Notes under the pieces: model-generated | What the model was told of the DNA's origin: nothing | The model's database searches: none | Seen by the model: the letters and a program-made list of their open reading frames with translations, nothing else | Position numbers and translations under genes: made by a program | Origin: Candidatus Latescibacterota bacterium | Lineage (GTDB): Bacteria; Krumholzibacteriota; Krumholzibacteriia; G020349025 | Direction of reading: 5' to 3' | DNA length: 64,000 nucleotides | Assembly: GCA_020349025.1 (NCBI GenBank) | Contig: CP070763.1 | Span: forward strand, 3,525,479-3,589,478 | Shown: positions 17,914 through 26,062 of the stretch, piece after piece | Numbering within the stretch: the stretch's first letter is position 1 | Layout of the letters: each line of letters opens with the position of its first letter

Positions 17914-20900
17914 TCAGCGGACCAGGACCATCTTGCGGTTCTGGATGATCCGGGGAGTCACGAGGCGGTAGAAGTAGACGCCGCTCGCCGTTGCACGTCC
18001 CGCGTCGTCGCGGCCGTCCCAGACCCGCGTGTGGCGCCCCGCCACGAGTGCGGCATCGACCAGCGTGCGCACGAGACGGCCCGAGGCATCGAAGATCTGC
18101 AGGCGCGCATGCTCTGCCGCAGCGAGCTCGAACTGGATGCGCGTGGACGGGTTGAACGGGTTCGGCACGTTGGCGAGAAGCTGCGTCCGTTGCGGCACAC
18201 CGACCTCGTCGGCATCGGTCGGATCCACGGACACGTACGCGCCGGAGCGCTGCATGTCCGCCCTGAACGTGCTCCAGGGAATGTGTCCCGGAACGTAGGC
18301 TCCCGTGAGATCGAAAACGTAGACCCGCTGGTCCCAGCACGACGCGACCAGATCCACGTCGGCGTCGAAATCCACGTTGGTGATTGCGGGCGTGGCGCGC
18401 AGCTCTGCGCCGAGCTGAATGGGGAATCCAGGCGCGGCGCTGCCGTCCGGAGCGAATGCGTGGATGATGCCGCTCTCGCCTCCGTAGATGATCTCCGGCA
18501 CCGTATCGCCGTCGAGGTCACCGATCACGGGCGACGCCTGCGAGGCACTCTCCAGGTCGACTGGCCATCCGGGGACCACGTTTCCCTGCCAATCGAACAT
18601 CCACAGCGCGCCATCCTCGGTCTTGCCCGTGTCACTCCCCCCCACCACGAGCTCCAGCTTGCCATCCGCATCGAAGTCGTGCAGCGCCACCGAGGGGCTG
18701 CGCGCGAACGTTCCCCAGTTCGTCTCGAATGCGATCGGCCACCCCGGCAGATCGCTGCCGTCCGACTGCAGCACGTAGAGGAAACCATCGATGGCGGGCA
18801 CCGCGATGTCGAGGCTGCCGTTGCCATCGATGTCGCCAATGCTGGGTGACGCCGTGACGTCGTCGCCCACGACGCGCGGCCATCCCGTCGCCACGCTGCC
18901 ATCGGAGCGCAGCACGTAGATGCGTTCGCTGCTGGTGGCAATGACGATCTCCGGATTGGCGTCGTCGGTGAGGAGATTGGCCACGGAAGGACCACCGCGA
19001 CTCCAATTCGAGCCGGGGGGGAGGGCGTAGAACACACCGTCGGTCATCGGATCGCTGTCGCCGTCGATGAACTCGCTGCCATCGGCGTTCCAGGCGTACA
19101 GGCGTCCATCGAGACCGAGGACCACGACCTCCGGGGTGCCGTTGAGATCGAGATCCACCACGCTCGGAGCGGCCCAGATGCCGAGGGTGGTTCCTTCCAC
19201 CAGCGGGCGCGGCCAACCCGGCAGCAGCGAGCCGTCGGCGTCGAAGATGAACACCTCACGCGTCTCCCAGGAGCAGGCGACGATCTCGGGGAGTCCATCG
19301 GCGTCCAGGTCACCGGCGGCGGGGCCGGCCGAGAAGTTCTCTCCTAGCGCCGAGAACACGCCGTCGGTGCTCGCGTCGCCGTCGCCATCGAGGATCTCCT
19401 TGCCATCGAAGGACCAGGCGTAGAGACGATCGGCGCCGACGAAGATCTCTCGCCGCTGGTCCCCGTCGGTGTCGACGACGAGCGGCGGAGATCCGGACCA
19501 CTCACGCATCACGCGGGGCCAGCCCACGGCCTGGACAGGGTTCGTGGTCACAGCGATCGCGGCCGTCTGCGCGCTCTCGTTGCCACTCGTGTCGATCGAC
19601 GCCACCGCGTAGTGGTAGGTAGTGCTGCCCTCGAGTCCGCGGTCGCCGAAGAAGCTCGCGCTCGTCACGACATCCTGGTTGGCGCGAGACCAGGGGCCGG
19701 AGGCGTCGGGTGCCCGGTAGACGTTGTAGCCGGCAACGTCACCCGAGGGGCTCGGCAACCAGCTCAAACGCACGAAGTCGGGACCACCGACGTCGGCGTG
19801 CAGGTCGGTGGGTGGGCTCGGCCGGCGCGTCTCGAGCGCGAAGGACCACGCATGTCCCTCCGTATCGACGAGCTGCACGTCGATCCAGTTGGGCGACGAC
19901 ACGTCCGTTTCGCGCAACTGGAACACCGCCGTGGCGCTCCCCAGGTAGGTCACGTCGCCGACCGTCGCGCTGCCGTCGAGAACCTGCACGTCCGGGTCCG
20001 TGGACCCCAGCGTTGCGCTGGCGCCGTTCAGCTGCGCGAAGCCGTAGTTCTTGAACTCGACGTGCAGATCGTACGCTTCGCCAGCTTCCGGCGTGCCGCT
20101 GCTGTCGGGATCGACCACCGTCAGATTCACCAGCCGGGGTCCCGCCTGCAGGAGATCGACGGCGATGCGGTCTGACCACGTTTGCGCTCCCGCCGACAGC
20201 GTCACGTCGATCTCCACATGGTGGCGATCGGGATGCATGTCGTGCAGGAGGACGCTCACCGCAACGTCCGCCAAGGTCTGACCCGGCATCAGGTCGCCCA
20301 CCGCGACCGTGGGACTCGGGAAACTCAGGAACGGATCGCTGGCGCTCAACGTCAGCGTGACATCGGCCGCGCTTGCATCCCCCTCGTTGCGCACGTCGAG
20401 CAGAAGCATGGCTTCCTCTCCCGCTTCCAGCGCTCCGTTGCCGTTGCCGACGGTGCCGGGTCCAGCGTCGTCGATCTGGACGCTCTCCAAGACGTGCAGC
20501 GCGGGCCCCACCGCCGCGCTGACCGGAACGTCGGCGCGGTAGACCGACAGACCCGGGCCGGAAACCGTGATTGCGGCGGAGCCCGCGGTCTCCGCACGGA
20601 CGTCGAAAGTCGCGCTTCCGGAGAGATCGGTCTTGGCGACGACGTAGAAGTCGCCCGGCTTCCACAGCGCCACGGTCGCCCCCGAAACGGGTGTGGCGGC
20701 AGCAGTCACCTGCACGGCGACGCCCTGCGATCCGATCGAGAGGCTGGTGTCGTGCGTCACCGTCGGTACGCTCGGCGCATTGCGCCAGATGTGGAGCGAG
20801 GGATCACCGAGGTACGCGGTGATCAGCGTGGTCCAACGCGTGACCGTGTCGAGGAGCGTTTGTCCGACGAGCCCGAGCCGCGCCTCGTCGAGCGCCGGGC

Positions 20901-22494
20901 CGGCCGCCATGTGCGGATCCGCGAAGATGCGTTCGAAGAACTCCTCGAGATAGAGCTGACTGCCATCGGGAAACGCTTCGCGCGAGGCGCCCACGACACC
21001 GACGGCACCCCCATCTGGACTGAGCAGAAACTGCTCCGCCAGACAGGGAAAATCGAAAGCGGAGGCGGTGCAGTTCAGCATGGCCAGGAAGAAGGGACGC
21101 TGCGAGTTGGTGAGCGACGAGGCGTGCACGTTGGTCAGCGAAAAGTCGCCGAGCGACATCGTGTAGCGGAAGCCGTGGCCGATATGGACGACCATCCCGT
21201 GTCCTGAGTTGATCGAATCGATTGCTGCGTCGCGCGTCAGGGTCTCGGCGCCGGCGTATCCTGCAGGCGCTTCGTAGAGCTTGGAGAGATCCCATGAGCC
21301 GTCGTCGAGGTCATTGAGCGCGATCAGTCTCTCGGCGCCGTCGGCACCATGCTTGAGAATCGTGCCACCCGAATAGTTGGCCGGCCACAGCACTTCCGCC
21401 AGGAAGAGCAATCGATCCTGGTAGTCGAGCAGCGCGGGAGAGGTGTAGGTGTCGAGCTTCGCCAGCAGCAGGTCGACCTGCGTCGGGTCGACGACGGGAA
21501 GGCGGCCCACCGCAACCTCCGGCGCCAAATCGGCGTTGTCGCCCTCGATGCCGAAATCCATGGCCTCGCCCCACAGGGCGTCCCCGTCCGCGTTCCAATC
21601 GCGATCCAGGCACGCATAGTAGAGATCAGTCGGCACCTCGGTCGGTGGCTGTGTGTAGGTGGAGTAGGCGTAGCGCGCCGGGATCACCTGTGTGTCGCCG
21701 CCGAGAAGCAGATAGCGGACCCCCCAGAGCTCGTACGCATCGCGTACGAACAAACGCAGCGTCTCCTGCAGGTCGGCCCCATGCGGGTAATTCTGCTCCA
21801 CCCACTCCACGGTTCGCACGACCGTCGGTACTCCGACGGCGGTGCGCGCATCTGCGTACTCCTGGAAGGCACTCTGCAGCGCGTCGTGCGTGAGGATCAA
21901 CATCTCGACCGGGCTGCCGTCGAGGCTGGGACGTTGCGTGGGTGAGAAGGTGATCACAGGCTCGCGTGGACCCACTTTTGCGATGCGTGCGTAGAGCTGG
22001 AGGTCTTGCGCATTGACGACGAGAGCCGCGATCTGTGCGCGGATCGACTGCATGCGCGTCGGATCGATTCGACGCGGGCGCGCGATGCGCTCGCGTACGG
22101 GTGCGGTGATCAGCTTCCACGAGGTCGCCGCCGACACACGCAGCGCGTCGTGCGAGTCGAAGACGACGGACGCGATCCCATACCCGTGGTAGAAGCGGGT
22201 CTCAAGCGCGCGAGGGGACACCGGCCCGATGATGTCGGTGAGTTCTTCGTCGGGCGCGAGCAGAAAGCGGAGGACGATCGATTCCGCGCCGTCGAGCGCC
22301 TGCTTCTGCGCTGCGAGCTGGGCGGCGATGGCGTCGCGCTCACGCGGGCCAGCGTGTAGCGTGCGCGCGGAGGCGTGGGTGGAGTGGACGCCCACGACCG
22401 CGATCGCGCAAACAGACAGAGCCGTTGCGCACGCGAGACGTCGCAGGCCGTGGAATGGGTGCAAGGCTGGGTCGGCCAACCACCTGAGGCGCAT
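17914..22494 (-). CDS. Gingipain-type (C25) cysteine peptidase with FG-GAP repeats and FlgD/Por-like C-terminus
   Basis: A 1526-residue secreted protein. A signal-like segment (SVCAIAVVGVHSTHASA) comes first. The peptidase C25 domain (about 195-580) has the catalytic histidine in VVHIGHGF (H440) and catalytic cysteine in AMLNCTASAFD (C475). CARDB/Ig-like and FnIII modules follow (about 600-960; FnIII near GDVAGYNVYRAPD). Then come about seven FG-GAP/VCBS-type beta-propeller repeats (GDIDGNGSLDIAVPAIDG and relatives, about 990-1400). The tail is FlgD-Ig/Por-like (PNPFNPSTRIQFEL ... GVYFYRL). In Bacteroidetes similar tails direct type IX secretion; here a secretion role is inference. Probably surface-attached or extracellular proteolysis. 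Confidence 0.93.
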   Translation of the reverse strand: MRLRWLADPALHPFHGLRRLACATALSVCAIAVVGVHSTHASARTLHAGPRERDAIAAQLAAQKQALDGAESIVLRFLLAPDEELTDIIGPVSPRALETRFYHGYGIASVVFDSHDALRVSAATSWKLITAPVRERIARPRRIDPTRMQSIRAQIAALVVNAQDLQLYARIAKVGPREPVITFSPTQRPSLDGSPVEMLILTHDALQSAFQEYADARTAVGVPTVVRTVEWVEQNYPHGADLQETLRLFVRDAYELWGVRYLLLGGDTQVIPARYAYSTYTQPPTEVPTDLYYACLDRDWNADGDALWGEAMDFGIEGDNADLAPEVAVGRLPVVDPTQVDLLLAKLDTYTSPALLDYQDRLLFLAEVLWPANYSGGTILKHGADGAERLIALNDLDDGSWDLSKLYEAPAGYAGAETLTRDAAIDSINSGHGMVVHIGHGFRYTMSLGDFSLTNVHASSLTNSQRPFFLAMLNCTASAFDFPCLAEQFLLSPDGGAVGVVGASREAFPDGSQLYLEEFFERIFADPHMAAGPALDEARLGLVGQTLLDTVTRWTTLITAYLGDPSLHIWRNAPSVPTVTHDTSLSIGSQGVAVQVTAAATPVSGATVALWKPGDFYVVAKTDLSGSATFDVRAETAGSAAITVSGPGLSVYRADVPVSAAVGPALHVLESVQIDDAGPGTVGNGNGALEAGEEAMLLLDVRNEGDASAADVTLTLSASDPFLSFPSPTVAVGDLMPGQTLADVAVSVLLHDMHPDRHHVEIDVTLSAGAQTWSDRIAVDLLQAGPRLVNLTVVDPDSSGTPEAGEAYDLHVEFKNYGFAQLNGASATLGSTDPDVQVLDGSATVGDVTYLGSATAVFQLRETDVSSPNWIDVQLVDTEGHAWSFALETRRPSPPTDLHADVGGPDFVRLSWLPSPSGDVAGYNVYRAPDASGPWSRANQDVVTSASFFGDRGLEGSTTYHYAVASIDTSGNESAQTAAIAVTTNPVQAVGWPRVMREWSGSPPLVVDTDGDQRREIFVGADRLYAWSFDGKEILDGDGDASTDGVFSALGENFSAGPAAGDLDADGLPEIVACSWETREVFIFDADGSLLPGWPRPLVEGTTLGIWAAPSVVDLDLNGTPEVVVLGLDGRLYAWNADGSEFIDGDSDPMTDGVFYALPPGSNWSRGGPSVANLLTDDANPEIVIATSSERIYVLRSDGSVATGWPRVVGDDVTASPSIGDIDGNGSLDIAVPAIDGFLYVLQSDGSDLPGWPIAFETNWGTFARSPSVALHDFDADGKLELVVGGSDTGKTEDGALWMFDWQGNVVPGWPVDLESASQASPVIGDLDGDTVPEIIYGGESGIIHAFAPDGSAAPGFPIQLGAELRATPAITNVDFDADVDLVASCWDQRVYVFDLTGAYVPGHIPWSTFRADMQRSGAYVSVDPTDADEVGVPQRTQLLANVPNPFNPSTRIQFELAAAEHARLQIFDASGRLVRTLVDAALVAGRHTRVWDGRDDAGRATASGVYFYRLVTPRIIQNRKMVLVR

Positions 22495-22632: not shown

Positions 22633-22917
22633 CTACTCTAGCAGACGTGAGCTCGCCCCGTCAACGCGGAAATCTTCATAATCCGTTGCCATCAAACGAA
22701 TTGCGCAGACAACGACAGCCCATTCCTCGGGTGTGCGCGCGCGGGCGACGCGGGGAGCGGGGCTTCGCACCGCACCCCGTGGCGTGCGTGGGATCCGGGC
22801 GGCCACACGCTTGCGCTCCAGCACAGGGAATCGAGGCACCGCCCGCAGCGAAGCTCGCGCCGGCTTCGCGTTGCGGCGAGGCGTCACCTTGCACCGCGAC
22901 GCGAAAGCACGCGCCAC
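22633..22917 (-). CDS. Small basic protein at end of ParA-CBM48 operon (hypothetical)
   Basis: A 94-residue open frame, strongly basic in its first 60 residues (RNAKPARASLRA, RKRVAARIPRTPRG), ending in a hydrophobic/acidic part (WAVVVCAIRLMATDYEDF). The GTG start at 22917 has GGAG five bases upstream. It begins 31 bases after the preceding small gene on the same strand. Codon usage near the end is more AT-rich than neighbours. I recognise no family. The frame could be fortuitous, but the ribosome site and spacing favour a real gene. Confidence 0.38.
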   Translation of the reverse strand: MARAFASRCKVTPRRNAKPARASLRAVPRFPVLERKRVAARIPRTPRGAVRSPAPRVARARTPEEWAVVVCAIRLMATDYEDFRVDGASSRLLE

Positions 22918-22948
22918 AACGGCTCCCAGTGTGGGAAAGAATGCGGAC

Positions 22949-23275
22949 TCAAGCAAGGGGTGGCGCAGTGGAGTCACGCAGCTGGACGTACTCACGCACG
23001 ACCACATCCAGCGCCTGCAGCGCAACCTCGTCGCTGCGAACGCGATATTCCACGGCCAGACCGGGCCCGACCCGAGCGATGAAGAGCTCACCGTAGAGCG
23101 ACAGCTCACACAGGACGCGCTCTTCGACGCGGAACCGCAAAGCGAACGGCTCGACCTCCGTGCGTACGTCCGGGCCGAGGGCGGCGATCTGATGCGCCAG
23201 CGTCTCGAGTACGGCCGCGGTGCGCATGTTGCCGGCGTCGGAGAGGAAGTCGTGCAGGTCAAGCACCCGGTCCAC
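22949..23275 (-). CDS. Hypothetical 108-residue protein, coupled to the ParA-like gene
   Basis: A mostly acidic 108-residue protein with no signal or membrane segment. The N-terminal half is helical (DRVLDLHDFLSDAGNMRTA, VLETLAHQIAALGPDV). The second half is an alternating strand pattern (FALRFRVEERVLCELSLYG, ELFIARVGPGLAVEYRV). It starts at GTG 23275 inside the 3' end of the ParA-like gene (17-base overlap in another frame), with GGAGG five bases before the GTG, a standard arrangement for translational coupling. I considered a frameshifted C-terminus of the upstream gene instead; the well-placed ribosome site argues against that. Family not recognised. Confidence 0.65.
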   Translation of the reverse strand: MDRVLDLHDFLSDAGNMRTAAVLETLAHQIAALGPDVRTEVEPFALRFRVEERVLCELSLYGELFIARVGPGLAVEYRVRSDEVALQALDVVVREYVQLRDSTAPPLA

Positions 23276-24224
23276 CTCGCCCTCCGAGGCCGGCAAACAG
23301 CGCCTGCACCAGGTTCTGGTAGATGCGCGCCGCCGGGTGCTCCGGATAGAGAGAGGATAGGGGCTGCCGCGGCGAGAGGCCGCGAGGGTAAGCGCGGATC
23401 CGCGCCCACGGACGTGGATCGAGATCAGCGCCCGAGTCACCCCACGCCACGACGTGGATGTGCGACAGCGGCAGCGTGTCGCGAAAGTGTGACACCACCC
23501 GGCGCGCGGAGGCGCCATCGCCGTGCGCGTGCACGCACAGGAGCGCGTCGATCGGTGGCGGCGAAGTCTCGCGCGCCTCCTCCCCGGGCGCGCGCCGCGC
23601 CGTCGCCAGCCAGTCGCCGAACATGCGGCTTCGGCTCCCCATCTCCGCCATCGTGGTGCCGCGCTCCGACATCTTGCCTGGCGCTGGAGGAGCATCGACG
23701 CGGCCCAAAGCGCCGCCGACGCGTTGCAGCGCTTCCACGGCGCCGTCATCGTACGTGGGGAGGTTGACGATGACGCAGTCGCTCTCCGAAAGCTCCCGTT
23801 GCATCGATTCGGGAAGCAGGCTCTCGCGCTCGTCGCGCGCAGCGATCCCCTCGACGACACGCAAGCCGAGGAGCCCACGTTCCACCCGCGGCTGCGCTTG
23901 GGGGCGTAGGTGTGCCATGTAGGCCGCGGCTTCGAGCCCGAGATGGAAGCCGGCGTTCGGCAGCATCGGATCGAGGTCGAGGACGAGAGTGCGCTTGCCG
24001 AGCCGGGCGAGTTGCACCGCCATGTTGCCGCACACGTCGGCTTTGGCCGGGCGATCGCCGTTGGCCACGAAGCCGAGACGGAGCTGGCGCGCGACCCGAC
24101 GCCTGGCGACCGGTTGGTTCCGGCGCGTCGAAATGTACAGATGGGAGATGTCGCGAAGCTGCTGCCGCGCGCGCTTCCCCGGCCGCGCGCGCGACCTGGA
24201 TTCGCCGTCCACGTCCGCCACCAC
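23259..24224 (-). CDS. ParA/MinD-like protein with degenerate Walker A
   Basis: A 321-residue SIMIBI-fold protein. The first beta-strand and P-loop region reads LRLGFVANGDRPAKADVCGN, where an active ParA would have KGGxGKT, so the signature lysine and the GK[T/S] are absent. Downstream elements persist: KRTLVLDLDPMLPNAGFHLG (Walker A'/switch I equivalent) and CVIVNLPTYDD (Walker B-like). It probably binds nucleotide poorly, as in TadZ/CpaE-type ParA relatives. A basic N-terminal extension (about 1-45) includes RDISHLYISTRR. It lies 49 bases after the ParA-CBM48 gene. The exact GTG start (24224, 24221 or 24212) is uncertain; GAGGA lies just before. Confidence 0.75.
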   Translation of the reverse strand: MVADVDGESRSRARPGKRARQQLRDISHLYISTRRNQPVARRRVARQLRLGFVANGDRPAKADVCGNMAVQLARLGKRTLVLDLDPMLPNAGFHLGLEAAAYMAHLRPQAQPRVERGLLGLRVVEGIAARDERESLLPESMQRELSESDCVIVNLPTYDDGAVEALQRVGGALGRVDAPPAPGKMSERGTTMAEMGSRSRMFGDWLATARRAPGEEARETSPPPIDALLCVHAHGDGASARRVVSHFRDTLPLSHIHVVAWGDSGADLDPRPWARIRAYPRGLSPRQPLSSLYPEHPAARIYQNLVQALFAGLGGRGGPGA

Positions 24225-24273
24225 TCCTCGACCCTAGGGCGAACCGCAGCTCACCCGTACACGCGGAGCGGGT

Positions 24274-25350
24274 TCACGCCTGCACGTTCACGACCGAATT
24301 CTCCTGCCCGAACTCGTTCGTGATGCACTCGTGGTTGTTCGGGTCCTTGACCCACACGCCATCGATGATGAAGCGGTATTCGTGCTGTCCATCGCCGATG
24401 TCGACGACGGTGCTCCAAACGCCATCATCACCGCGCTGCAGTGCGTACCCCTCGTACGACCAGTTGCAGAACTCGCCGGTCACCCGGACGTCCTGAGCAT
24501 GCGGCGCCTCGATGGCGAACCGCACTCCGCCCGGAACGATCTGAGGCCCCTGGAAGACGTTTCCGACCTCTCGCCTCTCGCTCACCTTGAAGAACCCCTC
24601 CTGGCCCACCAACTCCTCGGCGAGGGCGGAGAACTCCTTGGCGGCGCGATTCGACGGATCGAACTTAGCGATCGGCTGGCCGCGGCTGGCAGCCTCCTTG
24701 AGCTTGACCGTGTGACTGATCACGGTCCGCAGCATCGAGTCGCCATGGAAGTTCTCGATCTCGTAGAGGATGTCTCGAGAGAAGTTCGTGCGACTGTTGC
24801 AGTTGTTTGCCAACACACGAATGTGGATCTCGTGGCCGATCTCGTCGCGTAGGAGCTCGATCGTCTCGCGCACCTTGTGCAAGCCATGCAGCGAGAAGAA
24901 GCTCGGATCCACGGGGATGATCGTCTCGTTCGAGGCCGTGAGCGCGTTGAACGTGAGCAGCCCGATGCTGGGCGGACAGTCGATGATCACGTAGTCGTAC
25001 GTACGGCGCATGCGCATCAGCTTCGCCAAGAGTCGTTTCTCGCGTCCCGGCTTGTCTTTGAGCTCCTGCTCGACGGCGGCCAGCACCACCGACGCGGGAC
25101 AGACATCCAGGTGCTCGCTGACGGGAATCGTAGCCTGGTCGATCTCGACGCCGGAGTGCATCAGCACGTCGTACATGCTGCGGTCGTAGTCCTCCGGGTC
25201 GATGTTCAGGCCGAGCGAGGCGTGTCCCTGTGGGTCCATGTCGACCACGAGGACTTCCTTCTTGCGCTTGGCGAGCGCCGCCGCAAGGTTGATGGACACC
25301 GTCGTCTTACCGCATCCACCCTTCTGGTTCACCACCGAGAGGATCCGCAT
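24274..25350 (-). CDS. ParA ATPase fused to a C-terminal CBM48 (glycogen-binding) domain
   Basis: A 358-residue fusion. Residues 1-255 form a canonical ParA/Soj ATPase: deviant Walker A KGGCGKTT at 10-17 including the signature lysine, VVDMDPQGHAS at 35-45, DYVIIDCPPSIG at 119-130, and PVDPSFFSLHG switch II-like. Residues 275-357 form an AMPK-beta-type CBM48: VRVTGEFCNWSYEG, DDGVWSTVVDIGDGQHEYRF, IIDGVWVKDPNN and GQENSVVNV. The glucan-contact tryptophans and asparagine of AMPK-beta are conserved; the lysine in YKF is arginine. ATG at 25350 has AGGAGGGGC upstream. It heads the operon with a second ParA-like gene. No parB or parS is nearby, so a role in chromosome segregation is less likely than cargo positioning. 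Confidence 0.95.
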   Translation of the reverse strand: MRILSVVNQKGGCGKTTVSINLAAALAKRKKEVLVVDMDPQGHASLGLNIDPEDYDRSMYDVLMHSGVEIDQATIPVSEHLDVCPASVVLAAVEQELKDKPGREKRLLAKLMRMRRTYDYVIIDCPPSIGLLTFNALTASNETIIPVDPSFFSLHGLHKVRETIELLRDEIGHEIHIRVLANNCNSRTNFSRDILYEIENFHGDSMLRTVISHTVKLKEAASRGQPIAKFDPSNRAAKEFSALAEELVGQEGFFKVSERREVGNVFQGPQIVPGGVRFAIEAPHAQDVRVTGEFCNWSYEGYALQRGDDGVWSTVVDIGDGQHEYRFIIDGVWVKDPNNHECITNEFGQENSVVNVQA

Positions 25351-25498: not shown

Positions 25499-26062
25499 TC
25501 AGTCGAAGAACCGGCGGCTCGCGACGTGCGCCTGCGCGAAGGCGCGCTTCGAGAGCGACTCGACGCGCACGGCTCGAGCAGAACTCGAGACGTGCACGAA
25601 AACGTCCTGCCCCGCAAAGATCCCGACGTGGTCGGCGGGTCGCTTCTCGAATGCGAAGAACACCAGGTCGCCCGGCCGCAGGTGCTCCACGTCCACTGGG
25701 ATCCCCGACTCGAGTTGCTTGCCTACGGTGCGCGGCAGACCCTCTCCCACGCTCGCGTACAGGTCTTGCGCCAGCTTCGAGCAATCGAGCCCGCGCGCCG
25801 AGGCGCCGGCCATGGCCAAAGCGCTCTCGACGATCTGCCGGCGCGGCTGCGGCAGAACGGAGGCGTCGAGCGCCAGGTCTCGGAGCAGATGCTGGCTCGG
25901 CGAGGGAGAGGTCGCTCCCCTTCCGGGGAGCGGCGAGCGCGACAAGTCCGATTCGGGGTGGCTGCGAGCACGCGCATCTCGAGCCGTGATCGCTTTTCCG
26001 CAACCGGTCAGGCCAACTGCGACACAGAGCAGGAGAAACCGCGCGCACCACCGCGCCATCAT
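25499..26062 (-). CDS. NlpC/P60 family lipoprotein (cell-wall peptidase)
   Basis: A 187-residue putative lipoprotein: MARWCARFLLLCVAVGLTGCG has the lipobox LTGC. The NlpC/P60 (C40) domain occupies about 80-187, with the catalytic cysteine in GLDCSKLAQDLY, the catalytic histidine in PADHVGIFAG, and a third polar residue in the VFVHVSSS strand. The intervening LRPGDLVFFAF strand is characteristic. Such enzymes cleave D-glutamyl-diaminopimelate bonds in peptidoglycan. Two ATGs (26062, 26059) are adjacent. It lies upstream of the ParA-CBM48 operon on the same strand, but a separate promoter candidate lies between them. Confidence 0.88.
   Translation of the reverse strand: MMARWCARFLLLCVAVGLTGCGKAITARDARARSHPESDLSRSPLPGRGATSPSPSQHLLRDLALDASVLPQPRRQIVESALAMAGASARGLDCSKLAQDLYASVGEGLPRTVGKQLESGIPVDVEHLRPGDLVFFAFEKRPADHVGIFAGQDVFVHVSSSARAVRVESLSKRAFAQAHVASRRFFD

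Follow-up and report, generated by a model that had tools for sequence, protein, structure and literature searches.

Partner proteins of ParA/MinD ATPases act in general through a positively charged N-terminus, the rest of the protein serving the cargo (PMC10241942, PMC12204374). In M. xanthus, the ParA-binding motif of ParB spans residues 11-19, with contacts made by L11, R13, L15, L18 and I19, and R13 is required for stimulation of the ATPase (PMC12462528). The glycogen-binding domain (GBD) of AMPK beta, which contacts glucan through W100, K126, W133, L146 and T148, is an allosteric glycogen sensor (PMC2642990). Glycogen in E. coli undergoes phase separation, gathers at the old pole through inheritance, pushes the nucleoid aside and renders division asymmetric (PMC12706056). 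The two accounts of ParA/MinD cargo systems cited above do not mention glycogen, and the passages retrieved from a large review of prokaryotic alpha-glucan enzymes have no relevant mention of ParA. A search of open full text returned no prior description of a ParA-CBM48 protein or of a ParA-like ATPase with a glycogen granule, and no active system for glycogen positioning or partitioning was found described in the open full-text literature searched.

The locus analysed here (Table 1) lies in a 64,000-nucleotide stretch of DNA, referred to as the window, from a Candidatus Latescibacterota genome that consists of a single 3.84-Mb contig and whose relatives are Krumholzibacteriota. The original prediction, made from the letters of the window, described a canonical ParA ATPase with signature lysine K10 fused to an AMPK-beta-type domain, and Pfam, PDB matches and invariant motifs all agree with that description. 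The ATPase part of the 358-residue fusion was assigned by Pfam to PF13614 (E 1.8e-53, residues 1-176), and a PDB sequence search returned ParA/Soj chains as the best solved relatives of the N-terminal part. Following the criteria for A/D ATPases of the Soj branch, the deviant Walker A with its signature lysine, the Walker A' and the Walker B were all found, and K10, K15, T16, D37, D39 and D124 were invariant in an alignment of 72 sequences. In the same family residue 216 is K or R in 63 of 72 sequences and residue 218 in 72 of 72; these two positions we take to correspond to the DNA-binding region of Soj, and DNA binding by the fusion is on this basis putative.

Table 1. Positions in the window of the ParA-CBM48 unit, its parts and its upstream neighbour.
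Feature	Position	Strand	Description
parA-CBM48	24274..25350	(-)	358 aa; Soj/ParA-type ATPase residues 1-250 and AMPK-beta-type CBM48 residues 274-357
CBM48 portion with putative glucan-contact residues W297, R326, W333, N351	24277..24540	(-)	AMPK beta alignment and conservation
Partner protein (protein 2)	23259..24224	(-)	MinD/ParA-fold body (predicted) without P-loop; N-terminal motif QQLRDISHLYIS conserved
Conserved N-terminal motif of protein 2, residues about 23-39 (LRDISHLYIS and flanks)	24108..24158	(-)	Counterpart of LGRGLxxVSRFxLS elsewhere
Third gene, 108-aa acidic protein	22949..23275	(-)	Small alpha/beta fold (predicted), no close solved relative; profile E 4e-17
ORF of the predicted 94-aa basic protein	22676..22948	(-)	Not supported as a gene
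Upstream neighbour, NlpC/P60 lipoprotein-like gene	25499..26062	(-)	Pfam PF00877

The C-terminal part of the fusion was assigned by Pfam to AMPK1_CBM (PF16561, E 7e-13, residues 285-357, 49 bits against a cut-off of 26.8), and its best solved relatives in the PDB sequence search were AMPK beta chains (E 1.5e-10). When aligned with AMPK beta, W297, R326, W333 and N351 of the fusion are equivalent to W100, K126, W133 and N150, the last being a further contact residue in the crystal structure. Among 72 distinct ParA sequences, W297 is W in 70, W333 is W in 65 and N351 is N in 64, and the eight exceptions are two ParAs without a CBM and six copies of a paralogue (copy A) from a small phylum, that of G081, in which W333 and N351 are both lost. 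Every copy that is followed by the partner gene described below keeps W297, W333 and N351, in line with the earlier reading that the tryptophans and asparagine of the glucan face are intact. In 69 of 72 sequences the position of K126 holds R or K, and those of L146 and T148 vary; the window protein has R at the K126 position and Q at the T148 position, which counts against glucan binding. The domain may bind alpha-glucan; unlike the GBD of AMPK beta, it is joined to a ParA and is not part of a kinase complex.

The fusion was found in 62 of 80 Krumholzibacteriota genomes, nearly always at full length and with 41-79% identity, and this full-length conservation excludes a chance origin of the fusion. 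With the bare protein as query, 84,980 genomes gave no match; the scan that succeeded used a profile of the ParA-CBM junction together with the CBM, and it returned two genomes outside Krumholzibacteriota with the fusion, most of the other matches being CBM48-only proteins. A profile search across phyla had been proposed with the original prediction, and searches around these two genomes showed the fusion in two phylum-level groups beyond Krumholzibacteriota. In one of these, labelled Deltaproteobacteria by its depositor, about 12 of 297 genomes have the fusion (16 exceed the threshold, a number that includes ParAs without the CBM), and the small phylum has it in seven of eight genomes, mostly in two copies. 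A match in Chitinivibrionia (L078) was set aside, since only the CBM end lay in an open frame, probably through a binning or sequence fault. No full-length match to the C-terminal ParA-CBM stretch was found among 72,556 plasmids, where two partial matches were an esterase and GlgB, and a plasmid origin or a role as a plasmid partition ParA was rejected on this ground. In a maximum-likelihood tree of ParA domains, 13 of 13 canonical Soj proteins fell in one clade (100/100) apart from the fusions, and the Krumholzibacteriota fusions formed one clade (100/99); the deep order of the tree is weak, and its deep branches do not decide between a single and a multiple origin of the fusion. As had been claimed for the unit, neither a local ParB nor parS was found: the window has no parS-like site at up to three mismatches, and the genome's only ParB_N match adjoins its soj elsewhere than in the window. 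Since the soj-parB pair is separate and the Soj clade is separate as well, the fusion is an orphan ParA and not the ParA of chromosome segregation.

The second protein of the unit gave a weak CbiA trace alone in Pfam (E 0.001). Its AlphaFold model (pLDDT 74.9, pTM 0.72) matched MinD (1hyq, best E 1.5e-8), FlhG, FleN and Soj in a fold search, and the earlier call of a second ParA-like protein that has lost its Walker A is therefore correct, the P-loop being absent. By alignment, the body of protein 2 is strongly diverged (13-22% identity) and its N-terminus is conserved. The motif there, in our view the most telling feature of the unit, had been missed by the original prediction; it reads QQLRDISHLYIS in the window and NLRDVSHLFLS, HIRDIAHLYIS or HISSIAHLFF in relatives, and the same position in the other two phyla is occupied by KLGRGLSDVSRFFLSG or RLGRGLADVSHVFLSG, with the GRGL-like pattern LGRGLxxVSRFxLS. 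Of 38 ParAs with an intact CBM, 36 are followed by a partner with this motif (37 with the variant HIRSIGHYFLSG of L054 included), as are none of nine ParAs whose CBM is missing or eroded; the motif was seen in three of 348 background ORFs. The counts are not independent because the loci are related by descent. The paralogue that has lost W333 and N351 also lacks the motif partner. The partner of the small phylum retains a P-loop-like GVRGKTT, and its MinD/ParA domain can still be recognised (PF01656, E 1.1e-10), which suggests the route by which the dead partner arose. At L181 the N-terminal motif sits on an unrelated HTH/coiled-coil body, and the motif thus behaves as a transferable tag, as expected for an adaptor.

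The partner motif matches L11-R13-L15-L18 of M. xanthus ParB, with the shared spacing L-x-R-x-L-x-x-V, and the window genome's own ParB begins MTRKALGRGIEALIPK. We took 8ray_B, from its length and its mutation, to be M. xanthus ParA D60A, and the ParB-peptide pocket was mapped onto the fusions through an alignment with it. Equivalents of the pocket core L150, L152, L155 and L187 are hydrophobic in essentially all fusions and that of Y81 is kept in 60 of 70, whereas the rim equivalents V116, E117, D110 and L192 have diverged, which counts against docking, as the loss of the GRG of the motif in the window's phylum counts against an activator. The N-terminus of protein 2 thus resembles the ParA-activating peptide of ParB, and by this resemblance it may activate the ATPase of the fusion.

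Several loci hold related arrangements. In the small phylum, L188, L190, L191, L192 and L198 carry a second ParA-CBM paralogue with an eroded glucan face and no motif partner downstream. Where the fusion has its CBM, the ParAs of L184, L185, L186 and L187 have an acidic tail of about 80 residues; they carry KGGCGKTT, are relatives of the fusion family and have no motif partner. The gene upstream of the B copies (L193, L194, L196, L197) had been called GalT by eye, a call that was dropped, the N-terminal 160 residues matching no Pfam family.

The third gene overlaps that of protein 2 by 17 bases. The claim that it encodes a real protein of 108 residues stood: a profile HMM of the family built without the window had a single match among 585 ORFs, the third gene itself (E 4e-17). 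Its model has a pLDDT of 88, and a fold search with it gave nothing below E 0.17, the best being frataxin/DUF1801-like. The family occurs at the same place in Krumholzibacteriota families f1, f2, f3, f6 and f7, and a different, longer third gene occupies this place in the other phyla; in L110 (9260-9835) and L174 it encodes about 190 residues that match no Pfam family and that, by eye, look like a catalytically dead PD-(D/E)XK nuclease fold. The predicted 94-residue basic protein had no homologue in the relatives' loci examined, the nearest relative included. A neighbourhood survey bore out the linkage of the motif partner and, in five families, of the third gene, but not that of a fourth. Nor did the promoter said to head the unit hold up: the scan found no consensus site there, just a -35-like TTGACA at 25467-25462 (-) with a poor -10. 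In 14 of 20 Krumholzibacteriota loci (L037, L047, L049 and others) the gene before the unit is a DUF212 membrane gene (PF02681, divergent PAP2-like), and the window has the NlpC/P60 gene instead. At 17914-22494 (-) the window encodes a secreted protein of 1526 residues that combines peptidase C25 with FG-GAP repeats, fn3 and an FlgD-Ig C-terminus, and about half of the Krumholzibacteriota loci have large secreted proteins of a similar kind downstream of the ParA unit.

Three lineages (L110, L043 and L181) have glycogen genes next to the unit. At L110 the gene that ends immediately upstream codes for a glycogen synthase-phosphorylase fusion, and a GT4 gene lies farther out; at L043 (Krumholzibacteriota f6) the fusion is followed within 9 kb by genes for a CBM48-only protein, a starch-synthase-like GT, a second GT4 and a phosphorylase, the first two of which are also found at L045; and L181 is flanked by a branching enzyme gene (GlgB), an alpha-amylase-like gene (by eye) and a gene for another CBM48 protein. 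No glycogen gene is adjacent to the unit in the window or in most Krumholzibacteriota. The window genome encodes a GlgA-type synthase and a phosphorylase. Presence of the fusion did not track GlgA, which was found in 51 of 62 genomes with the fusion and 12 of 18 without; because GlgA is nearly everywhere, phyletic co-occurrence with glycogen synthase was discarded as an uninformative test of function, and the presence of phosphorylase across the genomes was mixed. In MAGs that are mostly Omnitrophota (L097, L100, L101, L103, L105, L111), one ORF joins an XRE-type HTH to AMPK1_CBM (Pfam shown for L100 and L111), and its product is a candidate glycogen-responsive transcription factor.

In comparison with ParABS (Soj-ParB), the unit shares a Soj-type ATPase with a deviant Walker A, a partner with a candidate activator peptide, LGRGLxx(L/V), at its N-terminus and the core of the peptide pocket. 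It differs in that protein 2 has a MinD/ParA fold and not that of ParB, in lacking parS, in carrying a glucan-binding domain on the ATPase and in the placing of the fusions in clades apart from the genomes' own Soj (100/100). McdAB and the other ParA/MinD cargo systems (PMC10241942, PMC12204374) likewise pair an orphan ParA with a small-operon partner that has a basic N-terminal peptide, and a cytoplasmic body is the presumed cargo in the unit as well; here, in contrast, it is the ATPase that carries the putative cargo-binding domain, the partner is a dead MinD-like protein and not McdB-like, and the presumed cargo is a polysaccharide.

We see nearly an even chance that the unit is a dedicated, vertically kept orphan ParA system in which the ATPase would bridge glycogen to the chromosome and protein 2 would bring about release, so that glycogen is spread over the nucleoid. 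ParA-CBM48 would lie on the nucleoid as an ATP-bound dimer, like Soj, and its C-terminal CBM48 would bind intracellular alpha-glucan (glycogen), so that the ATPase on its own would link glycogen particles to the chromosome. In its simplest form the model has ParA-CBM dimers on DNA and glucan together, as a bridge between nucleoid and glycogen. The amphipathic, basic N-terminal peptide of protein 2 (LGRGLxxVSxxxLS, eroded to LRDISHLYIS in the window's phylum) would dock where the ParB peptide binds a ParA dimer, triggering ATP hydrolysis and release, and the dead MinD-like body together with the small third protein may anchor or regulate. Through repeated grip and release, glycogen would be spread over the nucleoid and each daughter would receive a share, with no collection at one pole. 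Against the bridge, the known systems bind their cargo by the partner, whereas the fusion unit has its cargo domain on the ATPase. More broadly, a ParA-type positioning system with a polysaccharide cargo, in which the ATPase grips glycogen and the partner combines a ParB-like peptide with a dead MinD-like body, might provide for active placement and inheritance of glycogen in several phyla, a proposal that is possible but on balance somewhat doubtful.

The main rival is that the unit senses glucan and does not move it: glycogen on the CBM would alter the ATPase or dimer state of ParA, and the pair would pass on the state of energy stores to transcription, replication or cell division, in the way that the GBD of AMPK beta serves its kinase and FleN or Soj their regulator targets. 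Sensing and moving both predict glucan binding and differ in whether glycogen is moved or spaced. The allosteric sensing by the AMPK domain (PMC2642990), the MinD/FlhG-like fold of the partner body, the distance of the window unit from glycogen enzymes and an HTH protein as partner (L181) or just upstream (L182, MerR-like by eye) at two Desulfobacterota-like loci all speak for a sensor. The ParB-like activator motif, however, implies a cycle of ATPase turnover, and across the three phyla no regulator or division gene is conservedly linked, and we regard a sensor as unlikely. Less likely still is a CBM48 that has given up glucan binding and acts in protein interaction or in shaping the dimer, within an orphan ParA that positions another cargo. 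CBM48-type domains can be structural, and two contact residues are gone from copy A of the small phylum, but no partnered copy lacks W, W or N while the sequence around them falls to 35-45% identity, and glycogen genes are linked in three lineages.

A role as regulator of polysaccharide synthesis or export, like that of BcsQ in cellulose operons, is the least probable of these readings, and we think it very unlikely. BcsQ is a ParA-fold ATPase tied to a glucose polymer, the DUF212/PAP2-like gene stands before the unit in the 14 of 20 loci given above, and polymerase-like, GT4 and WecA-like genes (by eye) come after the unit in Krumholzibacteriota f4 and f5. The ParA domain does match the BcsQ equivalog TIGR03371, but weakly (87 bits, below the curated cut-off of 157.85), and it aligns better to Soj than to BcsQ. 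Further, no Bcs genes were seen, export genes are missing from most families and from the other phyla, and the CBM is cytoplasmic and of the alpha-glucan, not the beta-glucan, type. As for the original idea of a system that positions or senses alpha-glucan stores, the glucan face, the nearby glycogen genes of three lineages and the ParB-like motif favour it, and the units of most Krumholzibacteriota, the window included, without an adjacent glycogen gene do not; it is partly supported, a reasonable hypothesis that has been strengthened, and the observation behind it was mostly right.

Taken together, the ParA-CBM48 operon is common to several uncultured bacterial groups and suggests a means, not described in the open full text searched, of holding or placing glycogen stores on the chromosome. 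The partner would show that unrelated bodies, a dead MinD-like protein among them, can acquire a ParB-like activator peptide, and such a grafted-peptide partner is a useful lead to the adaptors of other orphan ParAs. If the ParA-CBM bridge proves true, it would counter a polar collection of glycogen as seen in E. coli (PMC12706056), and a conserved ParA with a glucan-binding domain makes the active distribution of carbon stores in some bacteria a directly testable question.
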